Assembly: GCA_025354525.1 (NCBI GenBank)
Contig: JANXMS010000620.1
Coordinates: forward strand, 1-39,945
DNA length: 39,945 nucleotides
Source: Acidobacteriota bacterium
Lineage (GTDB): Bacteria; Acidobacteriota; Terriglobia; Bryobacterales; Bryobacteraceae
Reading direction: 5' to 3'
This document shows positions 2,689-26,228 of this stretch, one piece after another (within the stretch, counting starts at the first letter, position 1; every line of letters starts with the position of its first letter). A model generated the notes under the pieces. It did no database searches. It was not told the origin of the DNA and saw only the letters and a list, made by a program, of their open reading frames with translations. The translations under genes were made by a program, and so were the position numbers.

Positions 2689-3171
2689 GTGACAGAAGAA
2701 GAGCTCAGCCAAAAACAGCTTGAGGCCCCGCCCGGGAGTTTTTCTCTCAAGGTGGACGGTCAAGGTCGTTTGGCGATTCCTCGGGAATGGGAGCACTACT
2801 TCGTTGGCAAGTTGGACGAGAAGGAATTTTTCATCACCTTCGAGAAGGGCTGGTTGAAGATTTTTCCGAGGCAGATTTGGTTTAAGCAGAACGCGACTGC
2901 ATTCCGGGAGAAGTCCGAGGAAGAGTACGAAGACTGGAGCATCACGATGCAGCATTATGGCGTGATGACCGGATTCGATAAAGAGTATCGGCTCACCCCG
3001 AGCCAGACACTGCGGACGGAGATGAACCTGAAGGGTGCCGAGTTGATCATGATGAATCACCAGGGCACTTTGCGGGGGATGTTGAAGACGGATTATGAAC
3101 AGCGTCGGCGTGACGCTGAGGAAGCAACCAACAAGCAACAGTCCCGGCCGGATGGCCTGCGGATGCTGTAA
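2689..3171 (+). CDS. mraZ: MraZ-like transcriptional regulator, first gene of the dcw cluster
   Basis: This 160-residue protein has two SpoVT-AbrB-like repeats: FSLKVDGQGRLAIPREWEHYF near residues 18-38 and EYRLTPSQTLRTEMNLKGAELIM near 103-125. That is the MraZ layout. MraZ proteins form rings and bind repeats upstream of their own operon to repress division genes. The sequence is divergent from textbook MraZ and has a charged, glutamine-rich C-terminus. The start is GTG 2689; no strong Shine-Dalgarno is visible. Position directly before rsmH supports the call. Confidence 0.82.
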   Translation: MTEEELSQKQLEAPPGSFSLKVDGQGRLAIPREWEHYFVGKLDEKEFFITFEKGWLKIFPRQIWFKQNATAFREKSEEEYEDWSITMQHYGVMTGFDKEYRLTPSQTLRTEMNLKGAELIMMNHQGTLRGMLKTDYEQRRRDAEEATNKQQSRPDGLRML

Positions 3172-3185
3172 CCGAAATTAGATGC

Positions 3186-4046
3186 ATGCACTACCCTGTA
3201 CTACTGCCGGAGACGATGGAATGGATGAATATCCATTCGGGCGGCGTGTATGCGGATTTGACATGCGGCATGGGTTCTCATACCCGGGCGTTAGCCGAGC
3301 GGGCGGCTCCGGGGATGGTTTATGCGCTGGACCGGGATGCCGAGTCGCTGGCGATGGCCAAGGCGAACTTGGCGGACGGGCCGCAGAACATAGAATTTAT
3401 CCACACGGCATTTTCGGAGGCGCCACGGGTGCTGCGGGAGCGGGGTGTGGGCAAGCTGGACGGACTAACGGCAGACCTGGGCGTATCGCGGGTGCAGTTA
3501 ACGGGTCAGCGTGGGTTTTCCTTCTCGACGGACGGTCCCTTAGATATGAGGCTGGATGCTTCTCAGGGATTTACGGCCGCAGAGTTAGTGAATCAACTTC
3601 CGGAACGGGAGTTGGCGAATTTGTTGTTCAACTTAGCCCAAGAAAGGAGGAGTTACGTCATAGCCAGAGCACTCGTAAGGAATCGACCGATTCATTCTTC
3701 GCTGCAGTTAGCGGAGATTGTATCCCGGTCGGTTCCACGTACGAGCCACAAGTTACACCCGGCTACTTTGACGTTCATGGCTCTTCGGATGGCTGTCAAT
3801 CAAGAGTTGGACGAGGTTACCGCGCTGATGGAAGCGCTGCCCGAGTTGTTAAAGCCTGGCGCACGAGCCGCCGTGATTGCTTTTCATTCCGGGGAAGCAA
3901 AGATTGTAAAGACGTATTTTCAACGCTTGCACAAGGAAGGGCGGGCGCGACTCTTAACCAAACATGCCGTCAAACCGACGGATCGGGAAGTATTCGAAAA
4001 TTCAGCCAGCCGCAGCGCCACGCTCCGCGTACTGGAATTGGTGTAA
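3186..4046 (+). CDS. rsmH: 16S rRNA m4C1402 methyltransferase RsmH
   Basis: It methylates N4 of C1402 in 16S rRNA using S-adenosylmethionine. The sequence shows HYPVLLPETMEWM at the N-terminus, the SAM-binding YADLTCGMGSHTRA, GLTADLGVSRVQL, GFSFSTDGPLDMRLD, and LTFMALRMAVNQELDEV. Two normally conserved blocks differ: the usual SFHSLEDR is AFHSGEAK, and the usual NPRSRSA is NSASRSA. The length (286 aa) is slightly short for the family. ATG 3186 gives the family N-terminus; the overlapping ATG 3182 is in another frame. It starts 14 bp after mraZ. Confidence 0.93.
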   Translation: MHYPVLLPETMEWMNIHSGGVYADLTCGMGSHTRALAERAAPGMVYALDRDAESLAMAKANLADGPQNIEFIHTAFSEAPRVLRERGVGKLDGLTADLGVSRVQLTGQRGFSFSTDGPLDMRLDASQGFTAAELVNQLPERELANLLFNLAQERRSYVIARALVRNRPIHSSLQLAEIVSRSVPRTSHKLHPATLTFMALRMAVNQELDEVTALMEALPELLKPGARAAVIAFHSGEAKIVKTYFQRLHKEGRARLLTKHAVKPTDREVFENSASRSATLRVLELV

Positions 4047-4082: not shown

Positions 4083-4580
4083 ATGGGAACTTTCGCGAGT
4101 GTATTTAACCGAGTACTGCCGCTGATTGCGGGCGGGGAACGAAACGATTTCAAGGAACGGATGACGCCTCGCCCTGAGCCGTGCGCATTGCGCGCGATGC
4201 CGAACGAGGACATTCATTTATTTATCAAGCGGATCGATAACAATCGCGTAATCCGCACGGAAGACAAGCAAGCGACGGCGACCTGTTGGCGGACGATCGG
4301 GGTGGCAGGCCTTTCGGCGGTAATTGCTGTGGGCATGATTGTTCCGACGGCCTACGGGCAGCTGGCTGGCTATCAAATTGAGCGCTCGCGGGAAGAGCAG
4401 TCGCGGTTGAGAAAGCAATTAGCGCAGCTTGAAGCGATGGAAGCCCAGTTGTTGAGCCCAGCGACGCTGGCGCGTATGGCGGATGACCAGAATTTTGTCG
4501 AGGCTTCTCCGGAGACGATGGTGGTCCTCAATGTCGATCGGTCGACGGCATTGGCGATGAATCAGAGTCCGAAGCAGTAG
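4083..4580 (+). CDS. ftsL: FtsL-like division protein
   Basis: This 165-residue bitopic protein has a cytoplasmic N-terminus of about 70 residues, one membrane helix (VAGLSAVIAVGMIVPTAYGQLAG, about residues 75-97), then a coiled coil (EEQSRLRKQLAQLEAMEAQLL) and a short tail with the ASPETMVVL segment. Size, topology and place between rsmH and ftsI match FtsL, which joins FtsB and FtsQ to activate FtsWI septal synthesis. FtsL is poorly conserved in sequence, so the call rests mainly on topology and synteny. The long cytoplasmic region is unusual compared with the E. coli protein. Confidence 0.78.
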   Translation: MGTFASVFNRVLPLIAGGERNDFKERMTPRPEPCALRAMPNEDIHLFIKRIDNNRVIRTEDKQATATCWRTIGVAGLSAVIAVGMIVPTAYGQLAGYQIERSREEQSRLRKQLAQLEAMEAQLLSPATLARMADDQNFVEASPETMVVLNVDRSTALAMNQSPKQ

Positions 4581-4801: not shown

Positions 4802-6808
4802 ATGGACAGCAACATGGAGACGACGGCAGAGCCGCAATCGCATAAGCGATTGATTTTCGTGACTTGGTGTGCACTCGGTTGGGGACTGATTATCTTCGGA
4901 CGATTGGTGCAGCTCCAGGTTTTCGAGCATGAGGAGCTTTCAAAGCGCGCCCAGGCTCAACAATCGAAGAAGACAAAAGTCGTAGCGCTTCGAGGGCAGA
5001 TCCTGATGCGCGACGCGGGTAAGCTGGCGATGAGCGTACCAGTCGATGCGATTAGCATCAATCCGATGCAGATTCCGGACGTCGACTTTGCGACCAGCAT
5101 GTTGGCGTCGACGCTGGAGTTGAAGGTGGCTGACCTTGAAGCGAGCATCATGGAAGCGAGAACGGCTCGGCGGGGCTACCTGCGGATCAAAGAGCACGCG
5201 ACTATGGAGCAGGTCGACCGGCTGCGGTCATACAAGCTGGACTATGTGACAGTGGAAGCGGTGGGTAAGCGGATCTATCCGAAGCAGACGTTGGCGGCGA
5301 ATGTGGTTGGTTCGTTGAACGGCGACGGGCGGGGCGAGGGTGGTCTGGAGCTTGGCTCGGAAGAGGATTTGGCGGGACTCGATGGCCATTTGATTGTGGA
5401 TCGGGATTCCCGTAGCCGGGGATACAACCGGAGCTACGAAGGCGAGCCAACGGCGGGGCAGGACATTACGTTGACGCTGGACGAGGGCATCCAGTTCATC
5501 GCCGAGAAAGCACTGCGAGAGGCGATGGAGCGGGAGAATATTCCGTTTGGTTCGTTGGTGGTTCTGCACGTGAAGACCGGCGAGATCCTGGCGATGGCCA
5601 GTTGGCCTACTTTTGATCCGAATGTCCGTTTCCAGGACAAGCGCGAGTTCAGTGGCCGACTGAACAATGCGCTGACGGTCCCCTTCGAACCCGGATCGGT
5701 TTGCAAGGTGATGACCATTACGGCGGCGCTAGAGACGACGAATCTGCGGCCGGAGACACCGATTGTTTGCGGTGGCACGGTGATGCGGATTCTGGGTCGG
5801 GACATTCATGATGAGCACGCCTACGGGGTATTGCCGATGCAGATGGTGCTTGCCAAGTCTTCGAATCTCGGCGCGGTAAACATTGGCATGAGGGTGGGCA
5901 AAGAGAACCTTTACCACTACATGAAGCTGTTCGGGTTCGGCGATACGTTGGGCATTGGCTTGCCTGGCGAATCGGGCGGTGTGATGCGACCGACGCGGCA
6001 GTGGAATCCGGATTCGATTGCATCGATCGCAATTGGCCACGAGATGATGACGACGACGCTGCAACTGGCGCAGGCGGCTTCGATCATAGCCAACAATGGA
6101 ACGCTGATGAAGCCACGGCTGATCTTGCATCGGCAGTCTCCCGGCGGGCCTATCGAAAGAGAGCCGGGGGCGGTTCCGGAGAGGCGGATTAAGCCGGAGA
6201 CGGCGATCATGATGCGCCGGATGATGGAGATGGTGGTGCTTGAGGGGACCGGCAAGGCGGCGAAGTTGAAGGGCTACACGTCAGGCGGCAAGACGGGCAC
6301 GGGCAAAATTTTTGAGCAGGGCAAGGGCTATCGGAGTTTGTACAACTCTACGTTCATGGGCTTTGCTCCGGTGGCGAACCCGGAGATCGTGGTGGTGGTA
6401 ACTTTAAACCGGACGACGAAGAAGGCTGGCGGAGTCGCTGGACCGGTGTTTCGCGATGTGGCCCAGGGCGCTTTGCGGATTTTGGGTGTGCCGAAGGACC
6501 TCCCGGAGCCGGAGCCCGTGAGCCAGGCCCCGGCGCGGAGTTCAAAAGAGACCGAGACCCAAGACGAAGAGGAAGAAGAGAAAGAGCTGGAGCGTCAGTT
6601 TAATGTTGCGCAACAGGATTCTCGAGTCGTGGCCGGGCCCAAGGTACCTAACTTTAAGGGCATGACCCTGCGAGCGGTTTTGCACAAGTCGGCGGCCGAA
6701 GGTTTTCGGGTGGACGTGGTGGGGTCTGGCGTGGCGAAGCGGCAGCAACCGCCGCCGGGCGCGGTGCTGGACCAGACGCGGCGCATTCTCGTGGTGTTTT
6801 CGCGGTGA
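4802..6808 (+). CDS. ftsI: FtsI / PBP3 septal transpeptidase with C-terminal PASTA domain
   Basis: This 668-residue class B penicillin-binding protein crosslinks septal peptidoglycan with FtsW. A short cytoplasmic tail and a membrane helix (about 17-40) lead to the dimerisation domain (ALRGQILMRD near 62-71). The transpeptidase domain has SVCK (S299 nucleophile, K302), SSN (353-355) and KTGTG (497-501). An acidic linker (ETQDEEEEEKELE, about 585-597) joins it to a PASTA domain (about 605-668, VPNFKGMTLRAVLHKSAAEGFRV). ATG 4802 is used; ATG 4814 is possible. It follows the only sizeable gap in the cluster and its stop overlaps the murE start (GTGA). Confidence 0.95.
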   Translation: MDSNMETTAEPQSHKRLIFVTWCALGWGLIIFGRLVQLQVFEHEELSKRAQAQQSKKTKVVALRGQILMRDAGKLAMSVPVDAISINPMQIPDVDFATSMLASTLELKVADLEASIMEARTARRGYLRIKEHATMEQVDRLRSYKLDYVTVEAVGKRIYPKQTLAANVVGSLNGDGRGEGGLELGSEEDLAGLDGHLIVDRDSRSRGYNRSYEGEPTAGQDITLTLDEGIQFIAEKALREAMERENIPFGSLVVLHVKTGEILAMASWPTFDPNVRFQDKREFSGRLNNALTVPFEPGSVCKVMTITAALETTNLRPETPIVCGGTVMRILGRDIHDEHAYGVLPMQMVLAKSSNLGAVNIGMRVGKENLYHYMKLFGFGDTLGIGLPGESGGVMRPTRQWNPDSIASIAIGHEMMTTTLQLAQAASIIANNGTLMKPRLILHRQSPGGPIEREPGAVPERRIKPETAIMMRRMMEMVVLEGTGKAAKLKGYTSGGKTGTGKIFEQGKGYRSLYNSTFMGFAPVANPEIVVVVTLNRTTKKAGGVAGPVFRDVAQGALRILGVPKDLPEPEPVSQAPARSSKETETQDEEEEEKELERQFNVAQQDSRVVAGPKVPNFKGMTLRAVLHKSAAEGFRVDVVGSGVAKRQQPPPGAVLDQTRRILVVFSR

Positions 6809-8298
6809 GCGACACAATTGGAGAGAACCTCGCCGCTAGTGGCATCGTGTCGGTGAGCGAGGAATCGGTGCTGGGGCAGCCTTGCCAGGGTCTAGCCTAT
6901 GACTCGCGTCAGGTACGAGACGGCTACCTGTTTTTTGCGTTTGTAGGTGCCGCTCTGGATGGCCGGAAGTTCGCGCATGCGGCCATCCAGAGCGGCGCCA
7001 CGGCAGTGGTAAGCGAGGCTCCGCGCCCGGAAGAGTTGACGATGCCTTGGATCGAGGTGGGGCACGGACGCCGGGCATTGGCGGCGGCGGCGAAGCGGTA
7101 TTACGGCGCTCCCGATGAACGGCTGGGACTGACGGGTATTACGGGCACAAACGGGAAGACCACCTGCACCTATCTAGTAGACGCGCTGTTGCGGGCCGCT
7201 GGGCACACGACCGCGCGCATTGGCACAATTGGGTGCGAGGTAGCTGGGGTGGCGGAGGCGGTGGCGAACACGACGCCGGAATCGCTGGAGCTGATTCAGA
7301 TCTTTGCAAGGACCTTAGAGGCTGGTGGCAGCTACGCCACGATGGAGGTTTCGTCCCATGCTTTGGCCCAAGGGCGGGTAGCGGGATTGCACTTTCACAC
7401 GGCGGTCTTCACGAATCTGACGCAGGACCATCTGGACTTTCATGGCTCGATGGAAGAGTATTTTGCGGCGAAGCGGAAGCTGTTCGAAGGGGATTTTAGG
7501 CCACCGTTTGCGGTGATCAACGCGGATGATGCTTACGGCCAGCAGATCAATCCTGGCGCGGCTACGACGACGATTCGGTATGGGCTGAGCGAGGCGGCCG
7601 ACTTGCGGGCGGAGGCGATTGAGAGTTCGCATTCGGGACTGCGCTTTTTGGCTTGCTACGGCGGCAACCGGTACGAAGTGCGGTCGGCGATGGTGGGCGA
7701 GTTCAACGTTTATAACATCCTGGCCGCCCTGGGAACCGGGCTGAGTTATGGGCTGGAATGGGATACGATGCTGGCGGGGATTGCGTCCTGCCCCGGCGTG
7801 CCGGGCCGCTTTGAGCGAGTCGACGCGGGCCAGCCGTTTCTCGTGATCGTAGACTACGCCCACACTGATGACGCGCTACGGAATACGCTGCGGGTGGCTC
7901 GGCAGTTGCTGAGCGGCGGCAAGTTGATCACCTTGTTCGGCTGTGGGGGGGATCGCGACCGGACCAAGCGCCCGCGAATGGGAATGGCGGCGGGGGAGTT
8001 GAGCGATTATGTCGTACTGACGAGCGACAATCCGCGGTCGGAGGAGCCGCTGTCGATTCTGAACGACGTGCTGGTGGGCTTGCGCCGGTTCGATACGCCG
8101 CACGCGGTGGAGCCGGATCGGGCGGCCGGGATTGCGCGGGCGATGAGCCGGGCGCGGGCGGGCGATATCGTGATTTTGGCGGGAAAGGGGCATGAGACTT
8201 ATCAGGTTCTGCGGGGTCGCACGATCGATTTTGACGACCGGGTGGTGGCTCGGCAAGTCTTAGCGAAGTTGGGCTTTGGGGTGTCGTCATGCGTATGA
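6805..8298 (+). CDS. murE: UDP-MurNAc-L-Ala-D-Glu:meso-diaminopimelate ligase MurE
   Basis: This cytoplasmic ATP-dependent ligase adds the third residue of the peptidoglycan stem peptide. The Mur-ligase P-loop GTNGKT is at 114-119, followed by NTTPESLE and MEVSSHAL (substrate binding and lysine-region motifs), and DNPR at 408-411, the motif that selects meso-diaminopimelate over lysine. The length (497 aa) is normal. Translation starts at GTG 6805, overlapping the ftsI stop by 4 bp, and its end overlaps murF by 10 bp, indicating translational coupling. Confidence 0.96.
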   Translation: MSDTIGENLAASGIVSVSEESVLGQPCQGLAYDSRQVRDGYLFFAFVGAALDGRKFAHAAIQSGATAVVSEAPRPEELTMPWIEVGHGRRALAAAAKRYYGAPDERLGLTGITGTNGKTTCTYLVDALLRAAGHTTARIGTIGCEVAGVAEAVANTTPESLELIQIFARTLEAGGSYATMEVSSHALAQGRVAGLHFHTAVFTNLTQDHLDFHGSMEEYFAAKRKLFEGDFRPPFAVINADDAYGQQINPGAATTTIRYGLSEAADLRAEAIESSHSGLRFLACYGGNRYEVRSAMVGEFNVYNILAALGTGLSYGLEWDTMLAGIASCPGVPGRFERVDAGQPFLVIVDYAHTDDALRNTLRVARQLLSGGKLITLFGCGGDRDRTKRPRMGMAAGELSDYVVLTSDNPRSEEPLSILNDVLVGLRRFDTPHAVEPDRAAGIARAMSRARAGDIVILAGKGHETYQVLRGRTIDFDDRVVARQVLAKLGFGVSSCV

Positions 8299-9626
8299 CG
8301 TTTGCCGAAATCGTGGCTGCTACAGGAAGCGCTTCGTCGGCCCCGGTGGGGAGCGTGGGCGACTGGAGTATCGACTCGCGGACGTTGGCAGGAGAGGCGA
8401 TTTATATCGCTCTGCCTGGCGAGGTTTATGATGGCCATCAGTTCGTCGAGCAGGCGGCGGCGAATGGAGCGGTGGCGGTGCTGGTCGAGAAGGAAGTCGC
8501 TGCTTTGGCAATTCCTTGTATTCGGGTTTGGAACACGCTGGTGGGGTTGCAGGAGCTTGCCCGCCGGGCGCGACTGCGGCTGACAGGCACGGTGGTTGGG
8601 GTAACCGGGAGCGCCGGCAAGACCACAACGAAAGATACGATTGCGACTTTGTTGGGTGGTGCGTTGCGCGTGGGAAAGAACGAAGGCAACCTGAACAACC
8701 ATATCGGGCTACCGCTGTCGATTCTGCGGCAGAGCCCGGTCGAGCAGGTTTACGTCTTCGAAATGGGGATGAATCACCTGGGCGAGATCCGATTTCTGGC
8801 TTCGATGGCGCGGCCTCAGATTGCGGTGGTGACCAACGTCGGCACGGCGCACATCGAGAACCTGGGCTCGCGGGAGGCCATTGCGCTGGCCAAGCGGGAG
8901 TTGGTGGAGAGCCTGCCGGCGGACGGGATTGCTGTGTTGAACGCCGATGACGCGCACGTGGCTCGGTTCAGTGAAATCCATCCGGGGCAAACGGTAACGT
9001 ATGGGCTGGAATGCGAGGCCGACTTCCGCGTGGAGAGCCTGACGATGTCGGAAGCTGGAGCGCGTTTTCAAATTGGCAAGACGATTTTTGAAACAGCTGT
9101 GGCGGGAAAACACTCCGTATTGAATGTGGCGGCGGCGGTTGCGGTTGGCAGCTTGATGGGCGTGACGCCGACGGCGATGGCCGAGCGAGCGAGGCTGCTG
9201 GAACCCGGGAAGATGCGGGGGGAGCGCGAGGAACATAAGGGAGTGACGATTCTGAACGATTGCTACAACAGCAACCCGGACGCCGCGAAGGCCATGTTGG
9301 CTTATGCCGCGATACTACCGGCGCGTCGGCGCATTGCGGTGCTGGGGGAGATGCTCGAACTCGGCGACTGGTCGACGGCGCTGCACCGGGAGGTGGGCGA
9401 ACGGGCCGCCGAACTACGCTTCGATCTTGTGGTCGGGGTGAAGGGCGACGCTTCGCATTTGATCGACGCGGCGAAGAGTGGAGGGGCTGAAGCGCTCTAC
9501 TTTGCCACGGCGGAGGAGGCTGGTGAGGCGCTTCGTTCTTTGACAGAACCGGGCGATCTGCTGCTGTTCAAAGGCTCCCGCGGCACGCGGATGGAACTCG
9601 CGCTCGAAAGGTATAAGGCCGGCTGA
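8289..9626 (+). CDS. murF: UDP-MurNAc-tripeptide:D-Ala-D-Ala ligase MurF
   Basis: This ATP-dependent ligase adds D-Ala-D-Ala to the UDP-MurNAc tripeptide, the last cytoplasmic peptide step. It has the P-loop GSAGKT at 107-112, NLNNHIGLPL, the MGMNHLGEI segment, NVGTAHIENLGS, and the C-terminal DCYNSNPDA and LGEMLELG motifs typical of MurF. At 445 residues it is of normal size. It starts inside the end of murE (10-bp overlap), and its TGA overlaps the mraY ATG by one base. Confidence 0.96.
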   Translation: MRMTFAEIVAATGSASSAPVGSVGDWSIDSRTLAGEAIYIALPGEVYDGHQFVEQAAANGAVAVLVEKEVAALAIPCIRVWNTLVGLQELARRARLRLTGTVVGVTGSAGKTTTKDTIATLLGGALRVGKNEGNLNNHIGLPLSILRQSPVEQVYVFEMGMNHLGEIRFLASMARPQIAVVTNVGTAHIENLGSREAIALAKRELVESLPADGIAVLNADDAHVARFSEIHPGQTVTYGLECEADFRVESLTMSEAGARFQIGKTIFETAVAGKHSVLNVAAAVAVGSLMGVTPTAMAERARLLEPGKMRGEREEHKGVTILNDCYNSNPDAAKAMLAYAAILPARRRIAVLGEMLELGDWSTALHREVGERAAELRFDLVVGVKGDASHLIDAAKSGGAEALYFATAEEAGEALRSLTEPGDLLLFKGSRGTRMELALERYKAG

Positions 9627-10756
9627 TGCTCTACTGGTTACTCTACGAACAAATTTCTCCGGTTTTTGGTCCCGCCCGCCTCTTCGGGTACGTGACGTTT
9701 CGCACGGCGTTTGCGAGCCTCACGGCGCTGTTCCTATCGCTTTTCCTGGGCCCCTGGTTGATCCGGCGGCTGCGCGAGTTCAAGTATGGGCAGCAGATCC
9801 GGGCTGAGGTAACGGCGCACCAGAAGAAGGCCGGTACGCCGACGATGGGCGGCTTGCTGATCATTGTCTCGATCGTGGTACCGACGCTGCTCTGGACCAA
9901 TCTGCGCAATCCGTACGTCTGGATTGCGTTGTTTGGTCTCGTGAGTTTTGGCACGATCGGCTTTTTCGACGACTACGCGAAAGTGAAGAAGATGCAGAAC
10001 ATGGGGTTCACGGCGCGCAAAAAATTCTTCTGGCAGGTGGTTGCCAGTTGCGTGATCGGCGTGATGCTGCTGATCCTACACGCGCGCGGGGGCTACGATC
10101 CGGCGATGAATGTACCATTCTTCAAGTCGTTCAAGCCGAGCCTGCTGATCACCGCTTTTCTAGGGAACCCTTGGACCTATCCGCTGGCGTTTGGGTTCTT
10201 CTTCCTGTTTCTCATCGTCGTGCTGGCGGGCTCATCGAATGCGGTGAATCTGACGGACGGCCTGGACGGTTTGGCGATTGGCTTGATGATCATCGCCGCC
10301 GGCGCCATGACGATGTTGACGTACATGAGCGGGCACCGGACTTTCGCCGAATACTTGGACCTGAACCGTCTTCCGGGCGCGAGCGAACTGACGGTTTTTT
10401 GCGGCGCGATGATGGGGGCCTCGTTGGGGTTCCTGTGGTTCAACGCGCATCCGGCCGAAGTGTTCATGGGCGACGTCGGCTCGCTGGCGTTGGGCGGCGC
10501 GCTGGGAACTGTCGCGGTGTTGATCAAGCAAGAGTTGCTGCTCGTGTTCATCGGCGGCGTTTACATCATCGAATTGATGAGCGTCGTTCTGCAGGTGGGC
10601 AGCTACAAACTGCGCAAGAAACGGATCTTTAAGATGGCGCCGCTGCACCATCATTTCGAAATCGTTGGTTGGACGGAGACCAAGATTATCACTCGGTTTT
10701 GGATTCTTGGTTTGATCATGGCGCTGTGTGCGTTGACGACTTTGAAGTTGCGGTAG
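9626..10756 (+). CDS. mraY: Phospho-MurNAc-pentapeptide transferase MraY
   Basis: This polytopic membrane enzyme transfers phospho-MurNAc-pentapeptide to undecaprenyl phosphate to make lipid I. Catalytic motifs are present: FFDDYAKVKK (aspartate pair), AVNLTDGLDGLA, FMGDVGSLALGG, and the cytoplasmic HHHFE. About ten hydrophobic segments are visible. The length (376 aa) is slightly above the usual 360, matching the bacterial types with a longer N-terminus. The start overlaps the murF stop. Confidence 0.96.
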   Translation: MLYWLLYEQISPVFGPARLFGYVTFRTAFASLTALFLSLFLGPWLIRRLREFKYGQQIRAEVTAHQKKAGTPTMGGLLIIVSIVVPTLLWTNLRNPYVWIALFGLVSFGTIGFFDDYAKVKKMQNMGFTARKKFFWQVVASCVIGVMLLILHARGGYDPAMNVPFFKSFKPSLLITAFLGNPWTYPLAFGFFFLFLIVVLAGSSNAVNLTDGLDGLAIGLMIIAAGAMTMLTYMSGHRTFAEYLDLNRLPGASELTVFCGAMMGASLGFLWFNAHPAEVFMGDVGSLALGGALGTVAVLIKQELLLVFIGGVYIIELMSVVLQVGSYKLRKKRIFKMAPLHHHFEIVGWTETKIITRFWILGLIMALCALTTLKLR

Positions 10757-10767
10757 CGGAGATTTTG

Positions 10768-12090
10768 GTGGAACTGGTCGGCAAACAAATCCTCGTCGTC
10801 GGGTTGGGCAAGAGTGGCCTGGCGGCGGCGCGCTTAGCGTTGCAGTTGGGGGCGAGGGTTACGGTGTGCGACGAGAAGCCGCTAGCGGAGACCCGATTCG
10901 CGGCGGAGGTAGCAGAACTAGGGGTGGGCTATTTGCCGCAGGCGGAGGCGGTAGGCGCTGCGTTCGATCTGGTGATTCAGTCGCCGGGTGTTCCGCTGGA
11001 AGCGCCGGTTTTTGCTGGAGCGCAGGTGACCGGCGAACTGGAGTTTGCGGCGCCGCTGTTGCGCGGCCGGACCATTGGAATTACCGGTTCGAACGGCAAA
11101 ACGACGACCACGGCGTTGATCGGCCATATTCTGCAACACGCTCAAGTGCCCGCGCAGGTGGGGGGCAATATCGGCACGCCGCCAACGGCGATGGTCGAAA
11201 ACTCGCGAGTCGGCCAGTGGAATGTGCTGGAACTGTCGAGCTTCCAACTCGAGACGATTCAAAGTTTTCAGGCCGACATCGGGCTGATTTTGAACATCAC
11301 GCCGGATCACTTGGATCGACATAAAACGATGGAGCGATACGTCGACGCGAAGGCCCGCTTGATCGAATTGCAGACTCGGTTGAACGTCGCTGTGCTGAAT
11401 GCGGCGGACCCGTTGTCGGGCGAGTTGGCCAAGCGGACCCGGGCTCGGATTGTGTACTTCAATGCGACGGCGCCGGGCCCATGGGCGATCGCCGAAAAAG
11501 ACGGCTTGATCACGGTGGACGAGCAGGTTTTGATTCCGATTGAAGCCATCTCGCTGCGGGGTCGACACAACGTGGAGAATGTGATGGCGGCGGCGGCGGC
11601 GGCGTGGTTGGCCAATGTGTCGCTCGACGATATTGCAGCCGCGATCCGCACTTTCCCCGGAGTGGAACATCGGTTGGAGTTTGTGCGCGAGGTGGCTGGA
11701 GTCCGCTACTACAATGATTCGAAGGCAACCAACGTGGACGCGACGGAGAAGGCGCTGGACGCCTTCGACGGTGGGTTGTGGGTGATTCTCGGGGGCAAGG
11801 ATAAGCAGAGTGACTATCGGGCGTTGGCAGGTCGCCTGCGGAGCAAGGCGCGCGGCATTCTGCTGATTGGCAAGGCCGCAAGCATTATCCGTCGGCAGTT
11901 GGAAGAGGTGGAACCCGGCCTGCCGTTGCTCGATTGCGGCACGCTCGGGGAAGCGATTCGAGTGGGCCATGCCGAAGGGCAAAGTGGCGACACGGTTCTG
12001 CTGGCGCCGGCGTGCGCGAGCTTCGATCAGTTTCAAAGTTATGAGCATCGCGGAAGCGTGTTCAAAGAATTGGTTCACAACCTGAAGTAG
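10768..12090 (+). CDS. murD: UDP-MurNAc-L-Ala:D-Glu ligase MurD
   Basis: This cytoplasmic ligase adds D-glutamate to UDP-MurNAc-L-alanine. An N-terminal nucleotide-fold segment (ILVVGLGKSGLAAARLAL) is followed by the ATP loop GSNGKT at 107-112, ELSSFQLE, NITPDHLDRH, the NDSKATN motif characteristic of MurD, and LGGKDKQSD. The frame extends upstream to 10669 inside mraY, but GTG 10768 (protein VELVGKQILVVG) has CGGAGA a few bases before it and gives the family length (440 aa). It starts 11 bp after mraY. Confidence 0.95.
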   Translation: MELVGKQILVVGLGKSGLAAARLALQLGARVTVCDEKPLAETRFAAEVAELGVGYLPQAEAVGAAFDLVIQSPGVPLEAPVFAGAQVTGELEFAAPLLRGRTIGITGSNGKTTTTALIGHILQHAQVPAQVGGNIGTPPTAMVENSRVGQWNVLELSSFQLETIQSFQADIGLILNITPDHLDRHKTMERYVDAKARLIELQTRLNVAVLNAADPLSGELAKRTRARIVYFNATAPGPWAIAEKDGLITVDEQVLIPIEAISLRGRHNVENVMAAAAAAWLANVSLDDIAAAIRTFPGVEHRLEFVREVAGVRYYNDSKATNVDATEKALDAFDGGLWVILGGKDKQSDYRALAGRLRSKARGILLIGKAASIIRRQLEEVEPGLPLLDCGTLGEAIRVGHAEGQSGDTVLLAPACASFDQFQSYEHRGSVFKELVHNLK

Positions 12091-12099
12091 GAAGCGACG

Positions 12100-13248
12100 A
12101 TGGGAAAGAGACTTTACACCGACAAAATATTGTTCTATGCCGTCGTGGCGTTAGTCACGTTTGGCTTGATCATGGTCTATTCCGCGAGTTCGATCATTGC
12201 CGTGCAAGGCAAGTATGACGTCGACTCGAACTATTTTTTCGTACACCAGTTGAGCTGGGCCGTGGTTTCGTTTCTCGTCCTAATGATCTTGAAGCGGCTG
12301 AACTATCGGATCTTCAATACCCCCGCATGGGCGTTTGGGGGTATCGGCGTCGTGCTCACGATGCTAATTGTTGCGTTCTTAACCGACACGGCGAAACATC
12401 GTTGGCTCAAGCTCGGAGTCGGGTCGCTGCAGCCAAGCGAACTGGCCAAGCCGGCGCTTGTCTTGTTCCTGGCGTTCTTTCTTTCTCGCCGGATTCGCGC
12501 GGTCAACAATGCCCGCTTTACGCTCGCCGGTTGCGGCTTGGTGCTCTCGTTCGTCGTCTTCTTTGTGTCACTGGCCGACCTGGGAACGGCGGTGGTGCTG
12601 ATCGCAACGACGGCTTTGACGTTTTTCGTGGCGGGTTTGGATCGGCGCTATCTGCTGTTGGCGGTGCCGGTAGCGGCGCTGTTTATGCTCGTTGGCGTCG
12701 CGGCTAAGCCGTACCGAGTGGGACGCGTCGTCGTGATGCTGGATCCAGAGCACAAGGTTCTGAACGTCGTCGACCCGAACGGCTGGGTGATGACCTACGT
12801 GAAGAGCTCCACCGCTCCGTCGGACCCGGCCTATCAGGCGCTGCAATCGAAGATCGCGATCGGTTCGGGTGGACTATTCGGCCTTGGGCTGATGGACGGC
12901 AAGCAGAAGCTGTTCTATGTCCCGGAGCCGCATACGGATTTCATTTTTGCTGTGATTGGCGAGGAGTTTGGACTGCTCGGTTCGACAGCCTTGCTGGCGG
13001 GGTTTTTCGTCATTCTTTGGCGAGGGTATCGAACCTTCCTGATGGCACCCGATGACTTCGGGCGCTATATAGCACTTGGGGTGACGACGATGATTGTCTT
13101 CCAAGCTCTTTTTAATCTTTCGGTAGTAACGGGCTTGGGCCCCACGAAAGGAATCCCGCTGCCGATGATCAGCTACGGCGGCAGTTCGCTGCTGGCGACG
13201 CTGTGCTCGGTTGGCCTTTTGCTCAGCGTCAGCGAGCGTTCGCACTAA
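12100..13248 (+). CDS. ftsW: FtsW septal peptidoglycan glycosyltransferase (SEDS family)
   Basis: This polytopic SEDS glycosyltransferase polymerises lipid II at the septum with FtsI. Conserved blocks include MVYSASS in helix 1, HRWLKLGVGSLQPSELAKPALV, DLGTAVVL, the extracytoplasmic loop PEPHTDFIFAVIGEEFGLLG, and TGLGPTKGIPLPMISYGGSSLL. About ten membrane helices fit in 382 residues, the normal size. Context between murD and murG favours FtsW over RodA. Its stop overlaps the murG ATG by one base. Confidence 0.95.
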   Translation: MGKRLYTDKILFYAVVALVTFGLIMVYSASSIIAVQGKYDVDSNYFFVHQLSWAVVSFLVLMILKRLNYRIFNTPAWAFGGIGVVLTMLIVAFLTDTAKHRWLKLGVGSLQPSELAKPALVLFLAFFLSRRIRAVNNARFTLAGCGLVLSFVVFFVSLADLGTAVVLIATTALTFFVAGLDRRYLLLAVPVAALFMLVGVAAKPYRVGRVVVMLDPEHKVLNVVDPNGWVMTYVKSSTAPSDPAYQALQSKIAIGSGGLFGLGLMDGKQKLFYVPEPHTDFIFAVIGEEFGLLGSTALLAGFFVILWRGYRTFLMAPDDFGRYIALGVTTMIVFQALFNLSVVTGLGPTKGIPLPMISYGGSSLLATLCSVGLLLSVSERSH

Positions 13249-14288
13249 TGGTGTTTCTTATGGCAGGAGGCGGCACTGGCGGACATGTGATTCCCGGCAT
13301 CGCGGTGGCCCGCGAACTGTCTGCCCGTGGCCACCGTCCGGTGTTTGTGGGCACGCGGCGCGGCCTGGAGACGAAGCTAGTGCCTGCCGCCGGGTTTCCG
13401 CTGGAGTTGATCGAGATCGGCAGTTTGCAGGGGCAAGGCCGGTGGCATCAGTTGACGACCCTAGTGCGCATGCCGGGGAGCATCATCCGCTGCCTGGCTC
13501 TGCTGCGGCAGCACGAAGCAGCGGCGGTATTCAGCATGGGCGGGTACGCGGCGGGCCCAGTGGCTGTGGCTGCGGCGCTGCGACGGCTCCCCTTAATCCT
13601 GATGGAGCCGAACGCCATACCGGGCCTGACCAATCGCTACATGGCCCGTTTCTCGCGCAAGGCCCTATTGAGCTTTGATGAAGCTGTAGCTTACTTTCCG
13701 GCGGGAAATGCCGAGTTGACCGGGCTACCGGTGCGCCGAGAGTTTTTCAATTTGCCGCAGCGGAAACGTGGCGAGATCCTTAACATCCTGGTGACCGGCG
13801 GCAGTCGCGGGGCACGGACGTTGAACCAAGCCGTGGCCGGCCTTTGGCCGTTGCTGGCAGGACAACCCGTGCGAATTCTGCTGCAATCGGGCGCGGATGT
13901 TCCGGACATTCCGGGGGTAACGGTGGTTCCCTTCATCGACGATATGCCGACGGCGTTCGCGGAAGCGGATCTGGTGATCTGCCGAGCAGGAGCGGGGGCC
14001 GTGGCCGAACTTGCCGCCGCGGGTAAGCCGGCCATACTGGTTCCCTACCCCTACGCCGCCGATGACCACCAAGCCAAGAACGCCGCCGCGTTCGAACGAA
14101 AGGGCGCGGCTCGCATGGTGCGCGACGGCGAATGCACGCCAGAACGGCTGCGTGACGAGATCGCGGTGCTGCTTTTGCCCGGAAACTTGGAGGCCATGGG
14201 CACTGCGGCGAGACGCTTCGCCCGACCCGGCGCGGCGGAACGGGCGGCAGACCTGCTTGAGGAATGTGTTGGAGTATTGAAACAATAG
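13248..14288 (+). CDS. murG: Lipid II synthase MurG
   Basis: This peripheral membrane GT28 glycosyltransferase adds GlcNAc from UDP-GlcNAc to lipid I. It has the N-terminal AGGGTGGHVIPGIAVA loop, GGYAAGP, EPNAIPGLTNR, GGSRGARTLNQA and the UDP-binding CRAGAGAVAELAAAGKPAILVPYP, in family order. The start is taken at ATG 13248, which overlaps the ftsW TAA by one base and gives MVFLMAGGGTGGH; the frame is open further upstream in ftsW but those residues are not MurG-like. The protein is 346 residues long. Confidence 0.95.
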   Translation: MVFLMAGGGTGGHVIPGIAVARELSARGHRPVFVGTRRGLETKLVPAAGFPLELIEIGSLQGQGRWHQLTTLVRMPGSIIRCLALLRQHEAAAVFSMGGYAAGPVAVAAALRRLPLILMEPNAIPGLTNRYMARFSRKALLSFDEAVAYFPAGNAELTGLPVRREFFNLPQRKRGEILNILVTGGSRGARTLNQAVAGLWPLLAGQPVRILLQSGADVPDIPGVTVVPFIDDMPTAFAEADLVICRAGAGAVAELAAAGKPAILVPYPYAADDHQAKNAAAFERKGAARMVRDGECTPERLRDEIAVLLLPGNLEAMGTAARRFARPGAAERAADLLEECVGVLKQ

Positions 14289-14297
14289 AAAGTTGAA

Positions 14298-15668
14298 ATG
14301 TTTTTTAAGCCACAACACGTTCACTTCACCGGCATCGGCGGCATTGGCATGAGCGGCCTAGCCATGGTGCTGCACAATCTGGGTTACACGATCACGGGTT
14401 CTGATCAGAAATTCTCCGCGACCACGGAGCGTCTCGAGAGCTTAAGCATCAAGGTTTACGAGGGCCACACAGCGGCGCATGTAGCGGGTGCGAAGGCGCT
14501 GGTGGTGACGTCGGCCGCGAGCGCGGACAACCCTGAATTGCTCGAAGCCCGGCGGCTCGGCATACCGATCATTCCGCGCGGCGAACTGCTGGCCGAATTA
14601 ATGCGCCTGAAGTATGGCATCGCGATTGCGGGGAGCCACGGGAAGACGTCGACGACTTCGATGACGGCGGCGATCCTGGCTTACGCCGGGCTCGACCCGA
14701 CGGTGGTAGTTGGCGGCAAGGTAGGGACCCTGGGCGGGGGCAACGCGCGCCTGGGTAAAAGTGATTTTCTGGTGGTCGAGAGCGATGAGAGCGATGGTTC
14801 GTTTCTGAAGCTCGCGCCGATTCTGGCGGTGGTAACGAACATTGACCGGGAACACCTCGATCACTATCACTCGATTGAGGCGATCCGCGCCGCCTTTCGG
14901 GACTTCGTCAACAAGGTTCCTTTTTACGGAGCGGCGGTATTGTGTTTGGATGATGAAAACGTGCAGCAGATCCTGCCCGAGGTGAAGCGCCGGACGATCA
15001 CTTATGGGTTCAGCTCCCAGTCTGACCTGCAGATTATTGATGCCGACTGCGGCCACTTCTTGTCGACTTGGAAGCTGCGTTTGCGGGGTGAGGACCTTGG
15101 TACATTTCAGATCCGCGTGCCGGGCGTCCACAACGTTTTGAATGCGACGGCTGCGATTGCGGTGGCCGACGAGTTGGACGTGCCGCAGGATGTGATCCGG
15201 CGCGGGTTGCTCGAATACACGGGCGTTGATCGGCGGTTCCAGTTGAAGGGCCAAGAGGGTGGCGTGACCGTGATCGATGACTACGGTCATCATCCAACCG
15301 AGGTCCGCGCGACGCTTGCGGCGGCTCGACTCTGCAAGTTTGGGCGCATTCACGTCATATTCCAACCGCATCGGTATACCCGCACGCAGCACTTGATGGA
15401 CGATTTTGCGCGCAGTTTTCATCAAGCCGAAGCGGTTTATTTGCTCGATATCTACGCGGCCTCGGAGGCTCCGATCGCCGGGGTCACCGCCGAAGCGCTG
15501 GTTTGCCGTCTGCAGGATTTCGGCCACCGGGGTGCCCAATTTTGTGGCACGATTGAGGCCGCTATCGAAGCCGTCTTGGCCGCCGTGCAGCCAGGCGACC
15601 TGATCATAACGCTAGGAGCCGGCAGCGTCTGGCAGGCCGGCGATAAACTCCTTTCCCGTCTGAAGTAA
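14298..15668 (+). CDS. murC: UDP-MurNAc:L-Ala ligase MurC
   Basis: This ligase adds the first amino acid, L-alanine, to UDP-MurNAc. The N-terminal HFTGIGGIGMSGLA loop binds the UDP moiety. The ATP loop GSHGKT lies at 112-117, followed by ESDESDGSFL, NIDREHLDHY, and DDYGHHPTEV plus QPHRYTRT, which are MurC-specific. The length of 456 residues is normal. No murB follows; the next gene 13 bp away is ftsQ, so UDP-MurNAc synthesis must be encoded elsewhere. Confidence 0.96.
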   Translation: MFFKPQHVHFTGIGGIGMSGLAMVLHNLGYTITGSDQKFSATTERLESLSIKVYEGHTAAHVAGAKALVVTSAASADNPELLEARRLGIPIIPRGELLAELMRLKYGIAIAGSHGKTSTTSMTAAILAYAGLDPTVVVGGKVGTLGGGNARLGKSDFLVVESDESDGSFLKLAPILAVVTNIDREHLDHYHSIEAIRAAFRDFVNKVPFYGAAVLCLDDENVQQILPEVKRRTITYGFSSQSDLQIIDADCGHFLSTWKLRLRGEDLGTFQIRVPGVHNVLNATAAIAVADELDVPQDVIRRGLLEYTGVDRRFQLKGQEGGVTVIDDYGHHPTEVRATLAAARLCKFGRIHVIFQPHRYTRTQHLMDDFARSFHQAEAVYLLDIYAASEAPIAGVTAEALVCRLQDFGHRGAQFCGTIEAAIEAVLAAVQPGDLIITLGAGSVWQAGDKLLSRLK

Positions 15669-15681
15669 TAGGAAGACATTT

Positions 15682-16563
15682 ATGGCACGCAAACAGCCCA
15701 CTCCCACCGCCGTCCGCACCGAAGATCGCCAGGCTCGCTTTCGAACCGTGCGTAAGGGTCTTGTTTGGGCCACGCTGTTTTCAGTCGCGCTAGTCAGCCT
15801 GCTTCTCGGCTGGCAGGAAACGCAGAACTATCTTTTGCGAGACGCGCAGTTCCGAGTGCCAATGCCGCCGGACTTAGGTGAGGAGAGTCCGAATCTTGAA
15901 ATTCACGGAATCAAGAATGCGGCCCGGGCTCAGGTGGCCGCTCCATTTGGCGCTGACTACGGACGCAGCCTTTACATGGTTCCTATCCGTCAACGGCGCC
16001 TTCAGTTACTGGAAAATCCCTGGATCGCCGAAGCGAGCGTAACTCGGGTTTGGCCCAATCGGGTGCGGGTTCACATTACCGAACGGGAGCCGGTAGCGTG
16101 GATCCAGATACCGGGCGAAGATCAATCGGCGCGACCCGCATTGATTGATGGCGATGGCAACATTTTGCAATTGCAGCAGCCTGGTGACTTCAAGCTTCCA
16201 GTGCTTTCGGGGGTAACTCCTCGTCAGGCCGAGGACGATCGAAAGTTGCGTGTTCACCGTTTTGTTAAGCTGCTGCAGGACGCTGGAACGTTGGCCGAAA
16301 AAATATCTGAAGTCGACGCCGCCGATCCGGGTAACCTAAAGGTGATGCAGGATGAAAGCGGGCACGTGGTTACACTCCTTCTAGGGGACCGTCAGTTCAA
16401 GCGGCGGCTGGAGAAGTTCCGGCTGAGTTATCCGGAGATCCAGAAGCGTGCGCCGGAATCGACCATTTTTGACCTTCGGATAGAAGGCAGCATTCTGTCC
16501 GTGCCCCGGGGCCCCGGGCAAGCGGAGCAGATCATCCGAGTTGAGGTTCCGCGTGGAGTCTAG
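15682..16563 (+). CDS. ftsQ: FtsQ / DivIB division protein
   Basis: This bitopic divisome protein forms the FtsQBL scaffold. A cytoplasmic tail and membrane helix (about 27-45, LVWATLFSVALVSLLLGW) precede a POTRA-like region (LEIHGIKNAARAQV to LLENPWIAEASVTRVWPNRVRVHITEREPVAWIQI) and the FtsQ beta domain (about 140-290). The segment W-I-x-x-A-x-V-x-R-x-W-P-N is the recognisable FtsQ core. It is 293 residues. The first ftsA-like gene starts inside its last 11 bp. Confidence 0.9.
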   Translation: MARKQPTPTAVRTEDRQARFRTVRKGLVWATLFSVALVSLLLGWQETQNYLLRDAQFRVPMPPDLGEESPNLEIHGIKNAARAQVAAPFGADYGRSLYMVPIRQRRLQLLENPWIAEASVTRVWPNRVRVHITEREPVAWIQIPGEDQSARPALIDGDGNILQLQQPGDFKLPVLSGVTPRQAEDDRKLRVHRFVKLLQDAGTLAEKISEVDAADPGNLKVMQDESGHVVTLLLGDRQFKRRLEKFRLSYPEIQKRAPESTIFDLRIEGSILSVPRGPGQAEQIIRVEVPRGV

Positions 16564-17419
16564 CGGATCGCTCTTGCGCGCCGGACTCGACGCGGGCAGC
16601 GTATATACGCGCTGCGTTGTGATTGAGTGGAGCAGTGGTCGACCGCGTTTGCGCAGTGCCAGCGTCGTACCTTCCCAGGGCTGGCAGGACGGTCGGATTC
16701 GAAACGCTGACGCCGTGGGGGGGTCCATATCGGCGGCAGCACTTTCGGCTGGCATCCGGGCGGGCATATCGGTGGACGCGATCACGGTCGGGTATGCCGA
16801 TTCGTTCAATCAGATGGAAGCCTTAAACGCCGCGATTGAGCGGAGTGGCCTGCGCGTGGCTGATTTCGTGGTCGAGAGCGAGGCTGCTCTGCTAGCGACG
16901 ACTTCGGACTTAATGAGGCAAGGGGGGATCAGCGCGGCGGCGATTGGCGTCGACGCGACCGAACTAGCTTATAGCGATTTGACTGGCGGCATTCGCACGG
17001 CCAGCGTGGATGTTGGCTCGCGCGAATTCACGCAGGATATCGCTAGCCTTTTTGATTTGCCGCTGGCCGAGGCCGAACACCTTAAGCTGGCGGAAGGGAG
17101 CATTGGCCGGATCGGCGTGGAACAAAAAACCACCCCGTTGCAGGAGATTCTGGAGGCGCGAGCCGGACAGTATCTTCACATGCTTGAATTTCGGATCGAA
17201 GAACTATCCGGACAGTTGCCGCCTCCGGGTGGGCTGATTCTAGCGGGCGGAGGCGCTTCCCTGCCCGGCTTATGTGATTTCGCGGAGAGGTTATTGCAAT
17301 GCCCCGTCCGGTTGGGCCAAGTGATCGGAGTGGCGGAATGGCCGCTGGAACTTTCCGCACCAAGCTGGGCCGTTGCGGCAGGGTTGGCGCTGCATGGAGG
17401 TGTCTCCCATGGCTGGTAG
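16553..17419 (+). CDS. FtsA-like protein lacking subdomain 1C (FtsA paralog 1)
   Basis: This 288-residue actin-fold protein is closely related to the next gene product. Residues 11-80 align without gaps (GLDAGSVYTRCVV in both). Then about 79 residues present in the neighbour (its about 84-162) are missing, which is the 1C subdomain of FtsA. The rest of the fold continues to the adenosine loop AGGGASLPG (231-239). The phosphate-2 aspartate, D209 in the neighbour, is A130 here, and no amphipathic C-terminal helix is present (ends GGVSHGW). I choose GTG 16553 (11-bp overlap with ftsQ); TTG 16541 is also possible. It is likely a non-polymerising or modulatory FtsA relative, which is inference. 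Confidence 0.8.
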   Translation: MESSGSLLRAGLDAGSVYTRCVVIEWSSGRPRLRSASVVPSQGWQDGRIRNADAVGGSISAAALSAGIRAGISVDAITVGYADSFNQMEALNAAIERSGLRVADFVVESEAALLATTSDLMRQGGISAAAIGVDATELAYSDLTGGIRTASVDVGSREFTQDIASLFDLPLAEAEHLKLAEGSIGRIGVEQKTTPLQEILEARAGQYLHMLEFRIEELSGQLPPPGGLILAGGGASLPGLCDFAERLLQCPVRLGQVIGVAEWPLELSAPSWAVAAGLALHGGVSHGW

Positions 17420-18611
17420 TCGGGTTCGTTTAGCGGTTGGACTGGACGCCGGAAGTTTCTACACCCGCTGCGTGGTCTGCGTCGTCGAGGACGGCAGAAT
17501 TCGCTTTCTGGGTTCGGGCGAAGTCGAGTCGAAAGGTTGGACGAAAAGCCGGATTGCGGACCGGGACGTGATGTCGGAATGCATCTGTCGAGCGGCTGGG
17601 GAAGCTGAGCGCCAAGCGCAAATTTCCTTCGATGCGGTCGTGGTTGGTTTAGGCGGCGAAGCGGTGAAAGGGGCCAACGCGCGGGGTGTCTACGAGTTCG
17701 GTCGGCCTCGCGAAATCGACGATTCGGACATGCGCTACGCGGTGGAACTGGCGTGCCGGGTGCGGCTCGAAGATGATCGAATTCTGCTCCAAGTATTGCC
17801 GCAAGACTTTACGGTCGACGGTCGGACCGGCATACTGAACCCACGCGGTATCCGTGGTTCGCGGCTCGAGGCCAATGTGCACGTCGTGACGACTTCGGCC
17901 ATCGACCATCAGGCCCTTGTCAGCGCAGTTCATCATGCGCATCTGGCGGTGGAAGAGACGGTTTTCGAGGCGATGGCGGCGGCCTATGCCTGCGTTCTTC
18001 CAGAGGAGCGGGCCAAGGGTGTTGCGGTCGCCGACATCGGGCTGCACTCGACTGAACTGGTCATCTACGACGGCGAGGCGATGGTGCAGGCGATCAGCAT
18101 TCCTGTCTCCGCGGATCACTTCACGCGGGACGTGAGCACGGGCTTTCACGTTACGCACGAGGACGCCGAACGGCTCAAGATTGAATACGGTTGCGCGATC
18201 CTGGGATTGACGGCGGACAACACCTTCATTGAGGTACCGTCGGCCGAAGGAAGACCCGCCCGGGAGGCGCCTCGGCGGGAGTTGAATGACATGCTGGAAG
18301 CGCGGGCGCAGTTTCTATTCGAGTATCTGCAGCGCAAAGTAATTGAAGTGGACATGGATCGGTCTCTGCTCGAAGGCATCGTGCTGTGCGGCGGCGGTGC
18401 TCGACTGAACGGCATGTGCGACGTCGCCGAACTCGTACTGAATTGCCCCGCTCGAAACGGTCTCCCGGTCGGCATCCAGGACTGGCCGAGTCGACTCAAC
18501 AATCCGAGTTGGACTACCGCCGCGGGCTTGGCCATGTACTCGGGCCGCTTGAAACAACACCGCGACGGGCGCAAGCCCCGCCCCCCTTTTCTTAATCTTT
18601 TAATGCGCTAA
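17409..18611 (+). CDS. ftsA: Cell division protein FtsA (full-length paralog)
   Basis: This 400-residue actin-like ATPase anchors FtsZ to the membrane. It has the phosphate-1 loop GLDAGSFYTR (11-20), the complete 1C region (about 84-162, VLPQDFTVDG), the phosphate-2 loop DIGLHSTEL (209-217), and the adenosine loop LCGGGARLNGM (326-336). A basic linker ends in PPFLNLLMR, a plausible short membrane-targeting tail. The phosphate-2 loop lacks the usual glycine pair. ATG 17409 is chosen because GGAGG lies just upstream; it overlaps the previous gene by 11 bp. ftsZ follows after 17 bp. Confidence 0.9.
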   Translation: MAGSRVRLAVGLDAGSFYTRCVVCVVEDGRIRFLGSGEVESKGWTKSRIADRDVMSECICRAAGEAERQAQISFDAVVVGLGGEAVKGANARGVYEFGRPREIDDSDMRYAVELACRVRLEDDRILLQVLPQDFTVDGRTGILNPRGIRGSRLEANVHVVTTSAIDHQALVSAVHHAHLAVEETVFEAMAAAYACVLPEERAKGVAVADIGLHSTELVIYDGEAMVQAISIPVSADHFTRDVSTGFHVTHEDAERLKIEYGCAILGLTADNTFIEVPSAEGRPAREAPRRELNDMLEARAQFLFEYLQRKVIEVDMDRSLLEGIVLCGGGARLNGMCDVAELVLNCPARNGLPVGIQDWPSRLNNPSWTTAAGLAMYSGRLKQHRDGRKPRPPFLNLLMR

Positions 18612-18628: not shown

Positions 18629-19876
18629 ATGGCAGAACTCAAATTTCAAATTCAGGAAGAGGCCGAACTCGGCACCCGGATCAAGGTGATCGGCGTCGGA
18701 GGAGGTGGATGCAACGCGGTCGCTCGCATGATGAACGCTGGGTTGCAAGGCGTAGAGTTCTACGTCCTCAACACCGACATGCAGGCGCTGCAGGCTTCTC
18801 CAGTGCCGAACAAACTGGCGATTGGCAGCAAGATCACGAACGGCCTAGGGGCGGGAGCGAACCCGGAGATAGGACGCCAGGCGGCGATGGAGGACACCAA
18901 CCGTATCATCGAGATTCTCGAGGACGCCGACATGGTCTTCATTACCTCCGGTCTGGGAGGTGGCACGGGCACGGGCGCAACGCCGATCGTGGCCTCATTG
19001 GCTCGGGAACTAGGCGCGCTTACGGTGGCCGTCGTCACCAAGCCGTTCAGCTTCGAAGGGCCCCGTCGGATGAAACAGGCCGAGCAGGGTCTGGCCGAGA
19101 TCGCCGGCGTGGTCGATACCGTAATCTCAATCCCGAACGATAAATTGCTGAAGCTGGCGGGTAAGAACACAAGCTTTCAGGAAGCGTTGCAGATGGCCGA
19201 CGACGTGTTGCGGCAGGCCGTGCAGGGCATCGCCGACATCATCACGACCCCAGGCATCATCAACCGGGACTTCTCCGACATTCGAGCCATCATGTCCGGC
19301 ATGGGTTACGCCATGATGGGCACTGCGTCGGCCACGGGCGAAGATGCCGCCATCGAAGCCGCGCGGCAGGCTATCAACTCGCCGCTGCTGGAAGAGGGCG
19401 GCGTGGAAGGTGCCCGCGGCATTCTTATCAACATTACGGGCTCGAGCCGTTTGGGTCTACTCGAAGTCAGCGAGGCTTGCACCCTGGTTCGCGAGGCTAC
19501 GCAGAACGATGACGTGCAGATCAGCTTTGGCGTTGTCGCCGACGAGAGCATGGACGAGACGGTGAAGCTCACCGTCATCGCGACCGGCTTCGAGCGGCAG
19601 ACCTTGCCGCAGATTCAACGCCGGAAGACGGCCGGGTCGCAACCGGTGGCCATCGACCCGGCGCTGTTTATGGACTTGCCGACGCCCCCACCCCCGATCA
19701 ATCTGATCGAGCGAGAACCTTTTTCTGAGACCGAGATCCAGACGCCCGAGGCCGAGTGGGTCGCTCCGCCACAGCCTGCGGAATCGGCTACGCCAGAAGC
19801 GACAAAGCCAGTCGATCCATTCGACGACGTGGATACCCCGGCGTTCTTGCGCCGCGAACGTAGGCTCTTCCGCTAG
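18629..19876 (+). CDS. ftsZ: Cell division protein FtsZ
   Basis: This tubulin-like GTPase forms the Z-ring. It shows GVGGGGCNAV (22-31), the tubulin signature GGGTGTG (110-116), and the T7 synergy loop GIINRDFSDIRAIM (about 208-221), where the usual hydrophobic residue before DF is arginine. A proline-rich linker (about 330-395) leads to the conserved C-terminal peptide DTPAFLRRERRLFR that binds FtsA. The length is 415 residues. A GGAAGG ribosome site precedes ATG 18629. Its stop shares the CTAG tetranucleotide with the stop of the convergent esterase gene. Confidence 0.97.
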   Translation: MAELKFQIQEEAELGTRIKVIGVGGGGCNAVARMMNAGLQGVEFYVLNTDMQALQASPVPNKLAIGSKITNGLGAGANPEIGRQAAMEDTNRIIEILEDADMVFITSGLGGGTGTGATPIVASLARELGALTVAVVTKPFSFEGPRRMKQAEQGLAEIAGVVDTVISIPNDKLLKLAGKNTSFQEALQMADDVLRQAVQGIADIITTPGIINRDFSDIRAIMSGMGYAMMGTASATGEDAAIEAARQAINSPLLEEGGVEGARGILINITGSSRLGLLEVSEACTLVREATQNDDVQISFGVVADESMDETVKLTVIATGFERQTLPQIQRRKTAGSQPVAIDPALFMDLPTPPPPINLIEREPFSETEIQTPEAEWVAPPQPAESATPEATKPVDPFDDVDTPAFLRRERRLFR

Positions 19877-25977: not shown

Positions 25978-26228
25978 GGCGCAAACTCCCTAATGTAGAT
26001 ATCGGCTGACTCGGGCGGTTTCTTTACTCAAATTCCAGCCTTCTGCCCAATCACAAATGACCCCTACAATTTACCAAGAAATTACCCTAGGTAGCCGAAA
26101 AGGTCTGGTGCTCCTTTCCTGTTTTCGCGAAACGCGTCATCATCGAGTCGAATCCTATCATGACGAAACGTCAAATTTCCGCGAAAGGATCGGCCTCCCG
26201 GCGAAATCCCCCAGTGAACGGAGAACCC
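25978..26228. other. Divergent intergenic region
   Basis: This 251-bp AT-richer spacer separates two divergent genes for exported proteins. It contains the 10-bp palindrome TTTCGCGAAA (26123-26132) and must hold both promoters. A reading frame starting at ATG 26160 joins the downstream gene in frame, but ATG 26229 is preferred for it. I see no RNA gene. Confidence 0.5.

Follow-up and report, generated by a model that had tools for sequence, protein, structure and literature searches.

The window, which is the whole 39,945-nucleotide stretch of acidobacterial DNA that was analysed, almost certainly holds an ordinary dcw cluster whose murB and ddl genes are encoded at two other places in the same genome. 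Their lack within the cluster is an ordinary and already known layout, since it is the commoner one in a sample of the phylum and agrees with the excerpts of a published dcw survey (PMC8871954). Less ordinary than the whereabouts of murB and ddl is a short FtsA-like gene that lies between ftsQ and ftsA.

Layout of the dcw cluster

The mur and fts genes of the window lie in the conserved order and end with ftsQ-ftsA-ftsZ, with one extra FtsA-like gene between ftsQ and ftsA, and it is this arrangement that identifies the group as a dcw cluster (Table 1). The original prediction held that murC passes directly to ftsQ across a gap of 13 bp, and the gene boundaries bear this out; neither murB nor ddl, whose presence at this point is a variable rather than a required trait of dcw clusters, lies between the two. 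Six of seven named relatives (L010-L015) likewise have a murC-ftsQ spacer of 13-15 bp, in which GAGGAAG or GAGGAG occurs; in the seventh, L016, the start of ftsQ was not located. The nearest named relatives of ftsQ, with 66-92% identity in six loci, are acidobacterial metagenome-assembled genomes, one of them Candidatus Sulfopaludibacter sp. SbA3.

Table 1. Features of the dcw cluster in the window and the basis on which each was assigned
Feature	Position	Strand	Basis
mraZ	2689..3171	+	Pfam MraZ 28.4 bits, cut-off 23; ORF as listed, start may differ
mraW / rsmH	3186..4046	+	Pfam Methyltransf_5 271.1 bits
Small ORF at ftsL place	4083..4580	+	Assigned by position only; no Pfam match at 0.001
ftsI-type penicillin-binding protein	4802..6808	+	NCBIfam PBP models, all below own cut-offs
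murE	6805..8298	+	TIGR01085 496.6 bits
murF	8289..9626	+	TIGR01143 393 bits
mraY	9626..10756	+	TIGR00445 392.1 bits
murD	10669..12090	+	TIGR01087 411.2 bits; ORF as listed, start probably further in
ftsW	12100..13248	+	Best score and position; TIGR02614 317.7 bits, below cut-off 337.5
murG	13203..14288	+	TIGR01133 292.5 bits
murC	14298..15668	+	TIGR01082 525.4 bits, cut-off 335.1
murC-ftsQ spacer, 13 bp	15669..15681	+	Shine-Dalgarno-like AGGAAG ahead of ftsQ ATG
ftsQ	15682..16563	+	Pfam POTRA_1 49.3 and FtsQ_DivIB_C 35.9 bits, both above cut-off
Short FtsA-like gene, 288 aa, GTG start	16553..17419	+	Pfam FtsA, alignment, model
ftsA	17409..18611	+	Pfam FtsA 97.1 and SHS2_FTSA 70.3 bits (ORF from 17373)
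ftsZ	18629..19876	+	Pfam Tubulin 163.1 and FtsZ_C 87.2 bits

Two of these assignments were compared with further models: the ftsW frame scores 153.6 bits with the RodA subfamily model NF037961, barely above that model's own cut-off of 150, and ftsQ reaches only 29.7 bits with NCBIfam PRK10775, for which the cut-off is 366. Downstream of the cluster lie open reading frames at 21468-22601 (377 aa), 24625-25977 (450 aa) and 26160-28196 (678 aa), none of which has a Pfam match at 0.001.

The E. coli dcw cluster serves for comparison, and both clusters run from mraZ to ftsZ with their mur and fts genes in the same order. In E. coli, ddlB sits between murC and ftsQ, whereas here ddl is found elsewhere and a second FtsA-like gene separates ftsQ from ftsA. 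With respect to murB the two clusters are alike, as that of E. coli misses both murA and murB according to the excerpts of the dcw survey (PMC8871954), where it is also stated that the FBC superphylum no longer has murB and ddlB in its clusters and that the genes often located elsewhere include murC, murB and ddlB.

murB and ddl in the genome and across the phylum

Where, then, are the steps of MurB and Ddl encoded? The original prediction saw neither gene in the flanks of the cluster, proposed that both steps must be supplied from elsewhere, and called for murB and ddl to be located in the complete genome and for the layout to be compared across the phylum. All of this has held: the contig that contains the window (C154) has no match for either gene, murB is found on contig C370 and ddl on contig C195 of the same genome, each above its curated cut-off, and the split layout is the commoner one in the phylum. 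A location of either gene immediately beyond the cluster was considered and is rejected by the same contig assignments, and enzymes absent from the genome are likewise rejected, given that both genes were found.

In a genome-wide profile search murB has a single match (G000:C370:53713-54600; TIGR00179, 163.8 bits, cut-off 144.5), which spans positions 1-290 of the 290 in the model and is thus full-length. The Pfam domains FAD_binding_4 and MurB_C are both present and the protein aligns with the solved MurB 4pyt across residues 21-318 of 320, including an AGSIF stretch whose serine we take to be the catalytic one. For ddl there is one match above the cut-off (G000:C195:12513-13439; TIGR01205, 345.1 bits, cut-off 245.65), again full-length at positions 1-317 of 318, and the protein finds the solved Ddl 7u56 with an E-value of 4.3e-84; the remaining nine matches of the ddl search in this genome score at most 53 bits and are probably other ATP-grasp proteins. 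Inspection of the contig ends in this genome places both genes in the interior of their contigs, of 78274 (C370) and 19311 (C195) bases. At its own locus murB has a xylose-isomerase-like gene 13 bp behind it, and ddl shares 4-bp overlaps with an arginase-family gene and with an S41 peptidase gene.

MurB is the UDP-GlcNAc-enolpyruvate reductase that makes UDP-MurNAc for MurC, and Ddl is the D-Ala-D-Ala ligase that makes the dipeptide added by MurF. The two predicted enzymes would be produced from separate loci of their own and feed the same pathway as the products of the cluster, with both genes presumably expressed and acting as the only source of their steps.

The genome is a 7.3 Mb draft, 97.2% complete, and it is from its 633 contigs and estimated contamination of 1.79% that an argument could be made for the contigs with murB and ddl being contaminants, the real genes being missing or lost in assembly gaps. 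This is very improbable, as a single murB is present in 17 of the 19 genomes of the genus, this one among them, and a single ddl in 18 of 19 at a threshold of 1e-30, the scores being similar throughout, and the same 331-aa open frame recurs in eight of the 17 genus murB matches. The two members of the genus that miss murB or ddl are 58% and 62% complete, and wherever the genes occur in the genus they are on a different contig from ftsA.

The phylum sample comprises 149 genomes, each at least 90% complete, and murC was found in all of them. When murB was placed relative to murC, six genomes had no murB match and in six murC was not among the matches listed, leaving 137 that could be placed. Here murB lies directly behind murC in 35, on the same contig at a distance in 18, 9.5 kb away in one and on another contig in 83, although most genomes are fragmented drafts, such that "another contig", in this count and in those that follow, may conceal a true neighbour that was separated by a contig break. 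Of the 62 families, 20 include at least one genome with murB directly behind murC, and the two profile matches are then 55-293 bp apart. These clusters resemble that of the window in possessing murC and differ in what follows it, which is murB there and ftsQ here.

With ddl the separation is more complete, in that none of the 140 phylum genomes with both genes has it adjacent to murC: in 116 it is on another contig, in 21 further off on the same contig and in three within 15 kb. The latter are G011 and G036 (family f12) and G128 (f43), where ddl is 4.4-4.8 kb from murC and not in its classical place. The split layout is common to the class and the order of the window. Within the class, murB follows murC in none of the 15 placeable genomes (17 sampled), and among the 104 genomes of the order in which ftsA and murB were both placed the two are on different contigs in 95 and at least 33 kb apart on one contig in nine. 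For the evolution of dcw clusters the layout simply adds counts, with murB behind murC in roughly a quarter of the placeable genomes and ddl never adjacent.

Could the genome nonetheless truly lack MurB activity, Ddl activity or both, and rely on a bypass or on precursor scavenging? At a threshold of 1e-30, seven of the 149 phylum genomes are without a murB match and four without a ddl match, which is what such a proposal can draw on; against it, the genome of the window has both genes, complete and above cut-off, which refutes the proposal here unless their contigs are contaminants or the genes inactive, and for five of the seven murB-less genomes the sample includes another member of the family that does have murB, which makes assembly gaps likely, the other two being alone in their families. 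We regard a genuine absence as scarcely credible, and the encoding of murB and ddl at two separate loci as the reading to be preferred. The seven genomes concerned (G015, G020, G023, G070, G092, G116 and G132) are estimated to be 90-99% complete.

A short FtsA-like gene between ftsQ and ftsA

The short gene, which the original prediction does not mention, begins within the last 11 bp of ftsQ. At its other end the ATG of ftsA overlaps the short-gene stop codon in all seven loci compared at this junction, and in six of them a GGAGG inside the end of the short gene precedes that ATG, the sequence in L028 being GGGGGG. The frame, read from 16541, matches Pfam FtsA with 46.5 bits (cut-off 31.8) and has no Pfam match to SHS2_FTSA (PF02491), the family of domain 1C, which is present in the ftsA that follows.

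The product thus resembles FtsA in having an actin fold, with domains 1A, 2A and 2B kept as judged by Pfam, a structure model and Foldseek, and differs from it in three ways, namely that it lacks domain 1C, that it lacks the C-terminal tail and that a different residue takes the place of the aspartate in the second phosphate motif. These differences are seen in an alignment of eight short proteins with 30 FtsA proteins from fetched loci, within which 48 columns are invariant in FtsA. Around 80 residues of domain 1C are gapped and 11 of the 48 invariant columns are deleted in all eight short rows; 29 of the others are kept in all eight and eight are changed, including the aspartate at position 209, presumably the one in the second phosphate motif of FtsA, which has become alanine in seven rows and valine in one. 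Each of the eight short proteins falls 18-19 residues short of the C-terminus of the genus FtsA, and the tail that they lack would be the C-terminal amphipathic helix by which studied FtsA binds the membrane, as described in excerpts of two papers (PMC7613929, PMC11323482).

A similar picture is given by modelling, where AF2 returned a pLDDT of 92.5 and a pTM of 0.90 when 33 FtsA rows were included in the alignment and a pLDDT of 31.4 with the eight close rows alone, such that the model leans on FtsA. Among the structures matched by this predicted fold in Foldseek, FtsA ranks best (7q6g, E 4.0e-23, TM by query 0.86, rmsd 6.3), followed by a second FtsA entry (7q6d, E 3.2e-22, TM by query 0.87, rmsd 5.1), and PilM, MreB and the compact EutJ rank below the FtsA structures. 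Identity as a PilM was set aside because the FtsA structures score best and because PilM_2 reaches 23.4 bits against a cut-off of 27. EutJ (3h1q, rank 34) is the structure best covered by the model among the 50 matches listed, with a TM by target of 0.76 and an rmsd of 3.0, although its E-value of 2.4e-14 is worse than those of the FtsA and PilM rows; to our knowledge EutJ is not a division gene.

What might such a protein do? Where FtsA has been studied, its 1C (IC) domain is responsible for the lateral contacts within the double filament and also binds the tail of FtsN, and in the excerpted description it is held to be unique among actins (PMC7613929). A paralogue that lacks both 1C and the membrane helix and has kept 2A and 2B might attach to FtsZ tails, or cap protofilaments of FtsA, without serving as their anchor, and the idea of a soluble partner follows from the role of 1C in the double filament and in FtsN binding in those excerpts (PMC7613929). 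It is therefore conceivable, if rather doubtful, that one clade of the genus possesses in this compact second FtsA a built-in regulator of the divisome, which may be a soluble FtsZ-binding partner or a cap for FtsA protofilaments. No title on a short FtsA-like gene of this kind was present among the literature matches listed. If the gene is indeed a natural, conserved paralogue without 1C, it would offer a ready-made test of the remaining functions of FtsA in division, and would be informative because 1C is unique and carries both the FtsN binding and the lateral contacts according to the same excerpts (PMC7613929).

The short gene is present in nine of the 19 genomes of the genus. Eight of the ten others have ftsQ and then ftsA with no short-gene match between them; of the remaining two, one lacks the gene in the 271 bp that its contig extends upstream of ftsA, and in the other the locus is truncated by a contig end. 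Matches above 95 bits in an order sample of 120 genomes are confined to seven of the ten genus members; the best match in the other 110 (94.8 bits) is an ordinary ftsA, and the best in the 148 phylum genomes other than that of the window is 72.4 bits. At 21 loci of the order sample that lie outside the genus, ftsQ directly precedes ftsA in 20 and one is cut.

In the ftsA tree the carriers group together in a single clade (100/100) that is sister to the non-carriers (100/99), a relationship explained by a single gain, or by a single loss in the sister group. G276 and L011, with identical FtsA rows, are probably the same genome. The short gene itself branches off on a long stem (2.34 changes per column) and does not group with the FtsA of the genus in the free tree, and AU tests of such a grouping did not reject it (p 0.125, 0.263 and 0.253).

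The possibility of a pseudogene was rejected, as dN/dS is low and none of the nine genus matches has an internal stop codon. Judged from codon comparisons, the gene appears to be under purifying selection, with dN/dS of 0.028-0.142 (28 pairs from eight rows of 864 bases each, the ninth carrier, G272, not being included) as compared with 0.020-0.082 for ftsA (21 pairs from seven rows, L011, truncated by a contig end, being left out), ratios that are rough since many dS values are near saturation. Among pairs of the short gene, 13 have a dS below 1.2, and their median dN/dS is 0.060.
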